A DNA stretch of 64,000 bases. Origin: Stenotrophomonas sp. ZAC14D1_NAIMI4_1 (GTDB taxonomy: Bacteria > Pseudomonadota > Gammaproteobacteria > Xanthomonadales > Xanthomonadaceae). The DNA lies in NCBI RefSeq assembly GCF_003086775.1, contig NZ_CP026001.1, forward strand, positions 1,576,407 to 1,640,406, given 5' to 3'. The notes under the pieces are model-generated. The model was given only the letters and a program-made list of their open reading frames with translations. It was not told the DNA's origin and ran no database searches. The position numbers were made by a program, and so were the translations under genes. Below, piece by piece: positions 12,664 through 15,170 of the stretch; position 1 is the stretch's first letter, and each line of letters opens with the position of its first letter.

Positions 12664-13176
12664 CTATTCCGCAGTTTCGGTGCGTATCGGCGTGTAACGG
12701 GCCACCCACGCGTCCACGCTCAGGCGCCCGGCGCCGTTGAACAGCAACGGCAGCAGCATCGCCATGAACAACGCCGGCAGCTTGAAATTGCCAAACCCCT
12801 GGTCGCTGATCGCATAGCCCATCGCCAGTTCACCCAGCGAATCCCAATGCATGGGCCAATGCACCGCATACGTGGCCACCACGGTCAGTACCAGCAGGCT
12901 GGCAGCCGCGAAACGCGTGCCCAGGCCGAACAGCAGGCAGGCCGCGCCGACCAGTTCGAACCAGGTCGCCAGCTGCCAGTTCACGCTGGCCGGCAACTGG
13001 TCGAACGGAAACGGGAACGCGCCCTGCAGTTCGGCAAACCAATTCTGGCCCTGCAGCTTTTCGCGACCGGACTCGAAGTATTCCCAGGCCAGCAGCAGGC
13101 GCAGGCCCAGGGGGGCCAGCCACGGGCCGCAGCGATCCAGCTGGCCGCGCACGGCGGCCAGGGGCAGGGTGTTCAT
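12664..13176 (-). CDS. DoxX-family membrane protein of the bufferin operon (BufD-like)
   Basis: 170 residues with four hydrophobic segments, DoxX-type ([20 protein letters not shown], then [22 protein letters not shown]). Last gene of the four-gene cluster; the ATG is preceded by a good GAGGAG ribosome-binding site, 27 bp after bufC. DoxX-like proteins are regularly encoded next to MNIO/DUF692 and DUF2063 genes; their role there is not settled and may involve redox chemistry or peptide export. The 3' end faces the RcnB-like gene across an AT-rich gap with no obvious terminator. Confidence 0.82.
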
Positions 13177-13203
13177 CAGGGGGGAACTCCTCGTTGGGGG
13201 GTA

Positions 13204-13959
13204 TCAGGCCACGGCGGGCAGCGGGCCGATCACGCCGGCCTGGAGGAACTGCTGCAGCAGCTGGGTGCCAGGTTCGGCCAATGCGTCGGCGTCGAGGTGG
13301 TGCAGGGTGGCCAGCTGCTGCAACTGCTGCTGGCCGCTGGCGCCGGGTGCTTCGTCGATCAGGATCAGCAGGTGCGCGGCCAGCGGGCTGAGCTGGGCGA
13401 AGCGCACCACGCCATCGGCATCGCGGCGGACCAGCAGGGCGGTGGGTTCGGCGGGCGGGGTGGCCGGTGCATCGTCGGCGCCCAGGCGGTGTACCGGCCA
13501 CGCGTACAGCAGCGGCCAGGCCAGCGGTGAGCAGCGCAGCGGGGCCTGCAGCGGGTCGACGCCGGGTGCCGGTGGCAGCGGCTGGGCCGCGCGCTGGTAC
13601 AGGTCGGTTTCCACCCACTCATAGTGGGCAAGCTCGGCCAGCGCCGGGTGCGGCAGCTCGGGCTGTGCCTGCAGCCATTGCACGAACTCGGCCGCCACGG
13701 CGGTGAACAGCGGCGCGCGTGCGCGATGGTGGGCGAAGTAATGGCGCACCAGGTCGGCCCACGCAGGTTCGCCGAGCAGGCGCACGCAGACCGGGAACCC
13801 CGTGCCGAGCAGCCCCAGCAGGTTGTTGAACAGCAGCCGCTGGTAGACCGCCACCCGCCGCGGGTCCAGGTCGGCCGGGGCCGGCACCTGTTGCGGGTCG
13901 CGCAGGTGCGCAGTGAAGGCGTGCTGCTGCGCGCGCAGGCGCTCGGGTGCATCAGCCAT
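13204..13959 (-). CDS. DUF2063 partner protein of the MNIO enzyme (BufC/HvfC-like)
   Basis: 251 residues. The N-terminal DUF2063 region has [16 protein letters not shown] and [25 protein letters not shown], typical of the family. Such proteins pair with DUF692 enzymes as RiPP partner proteins that help bind the precursor peptide. The ATG at 13959 overlaps the end of the DUF692 gene by 8 bp, implying coupled translation. The C-terminal half (about 170-250) is a winged-helix-like region. No cysteine cluster or signal peptide is seen, so it should be cytoplasmic. Confidence 0.85.
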
Positions 13960-14827
13960 GGGCAGCCTCGCGCAACGTGGCCTGCAGGCGGCGGATGGTA
14001 CGCAGTTCGCCCTGCAGCTCGGCATAGGGCGGGAAGTTGAAATCGCGTTCGAGCAGTGTGGGGCGCGGGCCGAAGCGGTCGTAGCTGCGTTCCAGCAGCG
14101 CCCACACGGGGTCGATCACCGGGCTGCCGTGGGTATCGATCTTCAGGTCCGGTGCCTCGTCCAGGTGGCCGGCCACGTGCAGGCAGACGATGCGCTGGGC
14201 CGGCAGCCCGGCGATGAAGGTGTCGGCATCGTAGCCGTGATTGCAGGCATTGACGTACACGTTGTTGACGTCCAGCAGCAGGTCGCAGTCGGCCTCGGCA
14301 AGCACCGCGTTGGTGAAGGCAAGTTCGTCCATCGCCGGCTGCGGCGCCAGGTAGTACGACACGTTCTCCACTGCGATGCGGCGGCCGAGCAGGTCCTGCA
14401 CGCGGGCGATGCGGGCGGCGGTGTGGCGCACCGCTTCATCGGTGAACGGAATCGGCAGCAGATCGTAGAGCTGGCCTTCGTCGCTGCAGTAGCTCAGGTG
14501 CTCGCTGTACAGCGGCACGCGGTAGCGCTCGAGGAAGCGGCCGACCTGCTGCAGCAGCTGGGTATCCAGCGGTGCGCTGCCGCCCAGCGACAGCGACAGG
14601 CCGTGGCAGCTCAGCGGATGGCGCCGGGCCAGTTCGTCCAGGGCATCGCCGGCCGGACCGCCGACGTTGATCCAGTTTTCCGGCGCGCACTCCAGGAAAT
14701 CGAAATCGCCGGCCGGCGCGTCGTGCAGGTCCTGCAGCAGTGCCCGCCGCAGGCCCAGCCCGACGGCCGCCGCTGGAAGCGGCAGCCGCGGGGAAACGAC
14801 GCTGGCGGCAGCGTCAGTGCTTGGCAC
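13952..14827 (-). CDS. MNIO (DUF692) multinuclear iron oxygenase for peptide modification (BufB/HvfB-like)
   Basis: 291 residues from GTG 14827. TIM-barrel DUF692 motifs are present in order: [64 protein letters not shown] and [13 protein letters not shown], carrying the His/Asp/Glu/Asn residues that bind iron in MbnB and related enzymes. Characterised relatives oxidise precursor cysteines to thiooxazole or oxazolone-thioamide groups. No ATG lies in frame near the family start. The GTG sits inside the bufA 3' end, overlapping it by 14 bp, and has GAAGG 8 bases upstream, made from the codons of an EGKCG motif. Confidence 0.88.
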
Positions 14828-15170
14828 CGCACTTGCCTTCGCCACACTTGCCTTCGGCGGCCTTCTTGTCGCCGGCGGTCTTTGCCTTGGCATCGGCGCC
14901 CGCGCCGGCCTTGGCCTTGCCCTTGTCGGCGCCGCACTTGCCTTCGGCGCTCTTGCCGTCGGCACCACACTTGCCCTCGGCATGCTTGGCGGCGTCACCG
15001 GCCTTGGCGTCGGTTGCCTTGGCATCGCCGGCCTTGGCCGCCTGGCCAGCCACCAGGTAGCCCTGGGCAAGGTCGGTCATGCTCAGGGCCGAAGCACTGG
15101 CAGTCACGCCCAGCCCTGCAGCCAGGGCGGTGGCGGTCAGCAGGGACAGGGTCTTGTTGGAACTGCTCAT
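14814..15170 (-). CDS. Bufferin/HvfA-type RiPP precursor with four EGKCG motifs
   Basis: 118 residues. An N-terminal Sec-type signal ([20 protein letters not shown], cleavage about residue 28) precedes a short conserved segment ([14 protein letters not shown]) and then a low-complexity Ala/Lys/Gly/Asp region with EGKCG at 65-69, 76-80, 106-110 and 111-115. These hold the only four cysteines. Chosen ATG 15170 has AAGGAG 10 bases upstream. The family is now known as copper-binding bufferins/HvfA, made from long precursors that keep their signal peptide for export after modification by the adjacent MNIO. The product here is predicted, not shown. Confidence 0.85.

Follow-up and report, generated by a model that had tools for sequence, protein, structure and literature searches.

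A probable EGKCG-type captophorin operon in Stenotrophomonas sp. ZAC14D1_NAIMI4_1

Results

A conserved four-gene operon on the minus strand

The window analysed here is a 64,000-nucleotide stretch of contig NZ_CP026001.1 of Stenotrophomonas sp. ZAC14D1_NAIMI4_1. It contains the following features, to which a second locus of the same genome is added.

15225-15268, minus strand: conserved block of about 45 nt upstream of hvfA, a candidate promoter or operator (alignment of 31 rows)
15170-14814, minus strand: hvfA-type precursor, 118 aa, with four EGKCG motifs and an apparent Sec signal
14827-13952, minus strand: hvfB, MNIO (DUF692) iron enzyme, 291 aa, GTG start
13959-13204, minus strand: hvfC, DUF2063/PME1 partner (RiPP recognition), 251 aa
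13176-12664, minus strand: hvfX, DoxX-family membrane protein, 170 aa
12262-12579, minus strand: RcnB-like small His-rich protein, probably exported, 84 nt downstream of hvfX
L085:4867-8363, about 1257866-1261362 of the same genome: second captophorin locus, its precursor an EF-hand fusion

The hvf genes were found exactly where the initial annotation had placed them, with the precursor ATG beginning at 15170 and the DoxX stop codon ending at 12664. Its description of four overlapping or closely spaced genes was also borne out: all four lie on the minus strand, the precursor and MNIO genes overlapping by 14 nt and the MNIO and DUF2063 genes by 8 nt, while 27 nt separate the DUF2063 and DoxX genes. 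Judged from the gene layout, these overlaps suggest translational coupling. Each gene is under purifying selection when compared with four relatives, with dN/dS of 0.08-0.23 for hvfB, 0.16-0.47 for hvfC, 0.12-0.25 for hvfX and 0.08-0.25 for the precursor (lowest against L005, where changes are few and dS is 0.05). The operon is real, intact and well conserved. Long antisense open reading frames overlap it, probably as a by-product of the high GC content.

Relatives, here and below, are the best 80 of 260, all picked for HvfB likeness. Some of their loci end at contig ends, so that a missing neighbour may be missing sequence. The RcnB-like gene (PF11776, 65.5 bits) was detected near hvf in 2 of these 80 relatives, L005 and L035, and was rejected as a fixed part of the operon; its operon membership is uncertain. 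It lies downstream in the window and in L005, and upstream of hvfA in L035 (L035:4180-4530).

Assignment to the EGKCG/oxazolin branch

The DUF692, DUF2063 and DoxX assignments made from the letters alone were all recovered with Pfam and NCBIfam models. In Pfam, the MNIO protein matched PF05114 (338.7 bits), the DUF2063 protein PF09836 (83.8) and PF22106 (90.3), and the DoxX protein PF07681 (74). The NCBIfam models for HvfB (NF003818, 413.8 bits against a cut-off of 360), HvfC (NF050145, 265.4 against 142) and HvfX (NF050144, 152 against 80) were all exceeded, and PDB entry 3dee matched HvfC (E 2.1e-5). For the precursor, the EGKCG domain model NF050137 gave 29.8 bits against a cut-off of 19.5, a score about 10 bits over that belongs to the whole protein, no single stretch lying within the E-value limit by itself. 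The strict HvfA equivalog NF050188 gave it 22.3 bits against a cut-off of 95, and a Pfam search at E<=0.01 returned no family, DUF2282 and EF-hand included.

The proposed match to the bufferin and HvfABC families divides. Its HvfABC part stands on the HvfB score; its bufferin part fell, and Buf1 membership was rejected, since the bufferin maturase model NF050167 reached 269.1 bits, below its cut-off of 310, and the precursor lacks DUF2282. The locus holds the components of the broad HvfA family, namely a repeated-EGKCG precursor, an HvfB with a complete iron site, a PME1/HvfC protein and a DoxX/HvfX protein, the last being frequent, not universal, in EGKCG/oxazolin captophorin clusters. By these models the locus belongs to the EGKCG/oxazolin (HvfA) branch and not to the DUF2282 bufferins.

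The HvfB active site

By sequence, the solved structure nearest to HvfB is 3bww (E 1.6e-77), followed by the DUF692 protein 8hci and by MbnB structures. The iron ligands given for Vibrio MbnB in the accessible text of PMC8888699 (H55, H91, E135, D165, N168, H194, D209 and E238) map to HvfB H75, H110, E154, D186, N189, H217, D231 and E260 in PDB alignments read by eye; H75 falls outside the MbnB alignment and was inferred from HGLSLSLGG, a conserved stretch that 3bww shares. The initial annotation had made its reading depend on these ligands, and all eight are present.

Replacement of N175, D242 or H244 is reported to abolish the activity of H. influenzae HvfB (PMC13419390, accessible part), and these residues correspond to N189, D231 and H233 here. 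The N175-D242 spacing is 67 residues in H. influenzae versus 42 for N189-D231 in the window HvfB, because the H. influenzae chain carries extra residues; the 3bww alignment also breaks in the N189-D231 region, with extra residues in the 3bww chain. From the related FonB, an Arg-Arg pair and a Phe are described as specificity residues together with a catalytic Asp, and among the variants only D249A left the peptide unmodified, the Arg and Phe variants being still functional (PMC13097082, accessible part). FonB Arg15, Arg16, Asp249 and Phe250 are R27, R28, D262 and F263 in the window protein, with spacing off by one residue. All 13 positions (the eight ligands, H233, D262, F263, R27 and R28) are invariant in 82/82 homologues, a set made up of the window, the second locus and the 80 relatives. 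These were picked for similarity, and invariance would be expected if they share a function.

The precursor peptide

The four EGKCG motifs seen in the initial annotation were confirmed at precursor residues 65, 76, 106 and 111, and all four Cys lie inside them. Two of them form a C-terminal tandem pair (Cys109, Cys114); the remaining two are isolated and lie 11 residues from each other. Shuffling the precursor 20000 times never gave two or more EGKCG, and the motifs are not chance. By inspection, the N terminus is Sec-like, with K6, a hydrophobic core and ASA before LSM in an apparent 28-aa signal. Cleavage between SASA and LSM, after Ala28, would leave a mature peptide of 90 residues with four Cys. 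For this apo-peptide (residues 29-118) the monoisotopic mass was calculated as 8529.21 when unmodified and 8513.08 with four rings.

In an HvfB tree the window falls within a clade of 31 rows, all EF-hand-free, with support 100/98 (the window, L005-L033 and L056, with L028, labelled Bacillus, among them). Precursors of this clade carry four motifs in 19 rows, five in 2 and six in 10. Those with four have a single tandem pair, and the other 12 have 2-3 pairs among their 5-6 motifs. The full EGKCG is kept at the isolated motifs in all 19 rows with the four-motif arrangement. In the L025 precursor one motif reads EGKSG, with loss of the modifiable Cys. L028 is titled Bacillus subtilis SK7B5 and stands within Stenotrophomonas in the tree, being probably mislabelled or contaminated.

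An EGKCG precursor shares the locus with HvfB in 79 of the 80 relatives. No frame holding at least two KCG turned up in L045, and the L074 precursor is EF-hand-type by eye. Our script found no precursor start in either, so that start-dependent counts cover 78 relatives and the window.

Distribution, neighbourhood and a second locus

HvfB scored over its cut-off in 75 of 87 genus genomes and in 173/247 sampled genomes of the family, a sample that includes some of the genus. Two copies were found in 26/87 of the genus genomes by our own row count, which pools both locus types. The window locus is an ordinary one, common in Stenotrophomonas and its family. Stenotrophomonas cyclobalanopsidis (HvfB 96%, phoU 100%) is the nearest named relative among the matches listed.

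Of the best 80 of 260 relatives, 60 have an RNase-T-like gene downstream and 53 have phoU upstream on the same strand, which fits a locus passed down together with its neighbours. A tblastn search of the fetched stretches (E<=1e-5) did not detect HvfX at 19 of the 53 loci linked to phoU, so HvfX is not essential everywhere. Two EF-hand-like motifs were seen in the phoU-linked precursors of L034, L037-L040, L042, L046, L051, L055, L058, L060, L062, L063, L067 and L077, with EGKCG motifs mostly on both sides of the EF-hands; in the accessible description of such proteins the EF-hands follow the EGKCG part C-terminally (PMC12452194).

A second MNIO and EGKCG pair was found at 1259318-1260510 of the single-contig 4.70 Mb genome. 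Read in the order of transcription, this locus starts with HvfX (135.6 bits), followed by a precursor that combines EGKCG motifs with two EF-hands, then by HvfB (411.3 bits) and HvfC (196.2 bits); a ferric-reductase-like protein comes last. In the HvfB tree its enzyme sits on a long branch, grouped with loci of the EF-hand type from Lysobacter and Pseudomonas.

The region upstream of hvfA

When 31 rows were lined up on an anchor motif, mean pairwise identity was 0.69-0.88 in the bins beside the anchor versus 0.31-0.36 further upstream; the 0.95 on the anchor motif itself is inflated by the anchoring, and all of these values are raised by how closely the rows are related. The conserved block was also recovered in an unanchored alignment. 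Going by these alignments, the block of about 45 nt marks the Stenotrophomonas clade of the window. It occurs once in the genome, no further copy being found with up to 3 mismatches. A sigma-70 consensus scan of 12150-15480 found none (0.3 expected), and a sigma-70 promoter was rejected on this basis. By eye, the block gave no convincing fit to a CueR-, sigma-E- or Caulobacter sigma-F-type (GTAACC-N16-CGAA) site. No copper-regulator site was identified at the hvf locus.

Between phoU and hvfA, palindromic repeat units (GTAGATCCACGCCATGCGTGGAT) occupy 15306-15331 and 15358-15380. The unit has 333 genome-wide matches with up to 2 mismatches, and these palindromes are similar to the SMAG/REP repeats known from S. 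maltophilia. One palindrome is flanked, next to the conserved block, by a direct repeat of 15 bp (GTGAGGATTGCCGCA) at 15265-15279 and 15337-15351.

The 2.3 kb upstream of hvfA was scanned on the plus strand for a sigma region-4 sequence pattern, which divergent copies may escape, in 79 loci (78 of the best 80 of 260 relatives, and the window). An ECF-type sigma gene ends directly upstream of hvfA in 19 of them (L034, L041-L044, L048-L050, L052, L060, L067-L070, L076, L077, L079, L081 and L082). Two of the 19 were confirmed by Pfam, and the C-terminal parts of these hvf-linked sigma proteins are 58-70% identical to the L041 protein. The scan found no such gene in the window or in the other 30 rows of its clade. 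A relocated copy elsewhere in the genome was rejected: the best match reached 30% over residues 45-201 of 204, versus 58-70% among the hvf-linked proteins. On this distribution, loss of the ECF sigma gene in the window clade would be the simplest reading.

Discussion

Comparison with known systems and proposed function

Characterised parallels are the EGKCG/PME1 systems fon, hvf and ngo, for whose products fontiphorin, oxazolin and gonophorin a 5-thiooxazole has been demonstrated; the earlier oxazolone-thioamide assignment of oxazolin was revised (PMC13097082, accessible part). The initial annotation had offered both ring chemistries. For the EGKCG products examined in that report the 5-thiooxazole is upheld and the oxazolone-thioamide is not, and a 5-thiooxazole is the ring to be expected at the window locus. 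According to the same accessible text, fontiphorin loses 4 Da per Lys-Cys, and copper is bound by fontiphorin in vitro and by gonophorin in cells (PMC13097082).

The window shares with H. influenzae HvfA/HvfB/HvfC/HvfX the same four gene families and the EGKCG motifs, and its HvfB, HvfC and HvfX score as equivalogs. They differ in the precursor, which falls below the strict HvfA model and has four motifs with one tandem pair, compared with three 11-letter elements in H. influenzae. They differ also in control: the H. influenzae cluster is described as being under RpoE2 (PMC7907618, accessible part), whereas no ECF sigma gene adjoins the window hvf genes. Fontiphorin (fonABC of Fontimonas thermophila) is alike in its EGKCG precursor, its MNIO with Arg-Arg, catalytic Asp and Phe, and its PME1 partner; unlike the window, with four sites and HvfX, it is described with seven modified sites and only three fon genes. 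In Caulobacter, sigma-F controls a DUF2282-type (bufferin Buf1) cluster, CC3254-3257, with the same order of precursor, MNIO, DUF2063 and DoxX genes (PMC3511200, accessible part), but the window precursor lacks DUF2282 and its enzyme falls below the bufferin maturase cut-off. The second locus is of the type described as Buf_EGKCG–EF-hand fusions (PMC12452194, accessible part), with a ferric-reductase-like gene, in contrast to the EF-hand-free precursor of the window.

We consider it probable that the operon product is an EGKCG-type captophorin, that is, an oxazolin/HvfA-like RiPP metallophore with 5-thiooxazole rings, which is Sec-exported and buffers copper. In the order of events that we infer, HvfC would hold the unexported precursor and present it to HvfB. 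With its Fe(II)/Fe(III) centre and O2, HvfB would convert the Lys-Cys of EGKCG into a 5-thiooxazole, at -4 Da each and up to -16 Da. Two of the four motifs being isolated, and a one-repeat minimal substrate being left unmodified by FonBC (PMC13097082, accessible part), the window precursor may be modified incompletely. The modified precursor would then be exported via Sec and cut after Ala28, and its rings, which bear thiolates, would bind copper in the periplasm and buffer copper excess, which would amount to copper protection. HvfX may assist at the membrane.

Alternative readings

A first alternative keeps this chemistry and gives the product a main role in envelope defence against oxidative or thiol stress (or another soft metal, e.g. 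gold), with copper secondary. Control in other species speaks for it: the DoxX/DUF692/DUF2063 cluster of H. influenzae is controlled by the hypochlorite-responsive ECF sigma factor RpoE2, SigE controls a DoxX-containing cluster in Neisseria (PMC7907618, accessible part), and 19/79 of our scanned loci have an ECF sigma gene immediately before hvfA. Against this, we found no such sigma gene in the window clade or elsewhere in the genome, and fontiphorin and gonophorin are reported to bind copper. We regard a mainly stress-related role as rather unlikely.

Equally improbable, in our estimate, is a two-ring chelator in which only the tandem pair (Cys109, Cys114) is modified and the isolated motifs are spacers or remnants. 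Among minimal substrates tried with FonBC in vitro, the two-repeat one was modified and the one-repeat one was not (PMC13097082, accessible part), and the single tandem pair of 19/31 clade rows suits such a product. The isolated motifs, however, retain the full EGKCG in every one of those 19 rows.

A methanobactin-like chalkophore for copper acquisition is very improbable: HvfB is distantly related to MbnB, but its 48 bits with TIGR04159 lie far below the cut-off of 325, on which methanobactin membership was rejected, and the operon has a PME1 partner instead of MbnC, an apparent Sec signal, and four genes without a transporter. A phosphate-starvation gene set following pstSCAB-phoU on the same strand is just as hard to credit, despite the recurrent upstream phoU, for phoU and hvfA are separated by 294 nt, repeat palindromes and a separate conserved block, phoU was not detected in Pseudomonas loci, and the adjacency reflects gene order inherited by shared descent; a phosphate function was rejected on the grounds of inherited order and separate block.

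Implications for Stenotrophomonas

The copper-buffering captophorin remains our preferred reading. With no ECF sigma gene alongside and no copper-regulator site identified, induction of the window locus may differ from that of its relatives. More tentatively, it is conceivable that an ancestral envelope-stress captophorin locus under ECF sigma control was rewired in the Stenotrophomonas clade: the sigma gene would have been lost at the phoU-RNaseT site, a lineage cis-element gained, and the product mostly shrunk to one tandem pair and two isolated sites. If true, the rewiring would free the metallophore from the control by oxidative stress that is known from Haemophilus and Neisseria, perhaps with labour divided between it and the EF-hand-type second locus.

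Some 2,000 proteins make up the described Buf_EGKCG/oxazolin family, in which the same four core genes are combined in different ways and EF-hand variants occur, and the main text of that survey, in its accessible part, does not name Stenotrophomonas (PMC12452194). The initial annotation knew of no characterisation in this genus, and we likewise found no study of its hvf locus in the open-access literature, among the matches listed; a passing remark likens DUF692 'bacteriocin' clusters from fungal assemblies to sequences of S. maltophilia (PMC8070225). The syntenic phoU-RNaseT loci vary in motif number, EF-hands, HvfX and sigma gene, and form a natural series for the functions of these parts, useful above all for the uncharacterised HvfX. 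The members of Stenotrophomonas range from an opportunistic human pathogen to many bacteria of soil and plants that encounter copper. Should the product act like those of its relatives, copper-buffering RiPPs would be part of the usual gene set of the genus.
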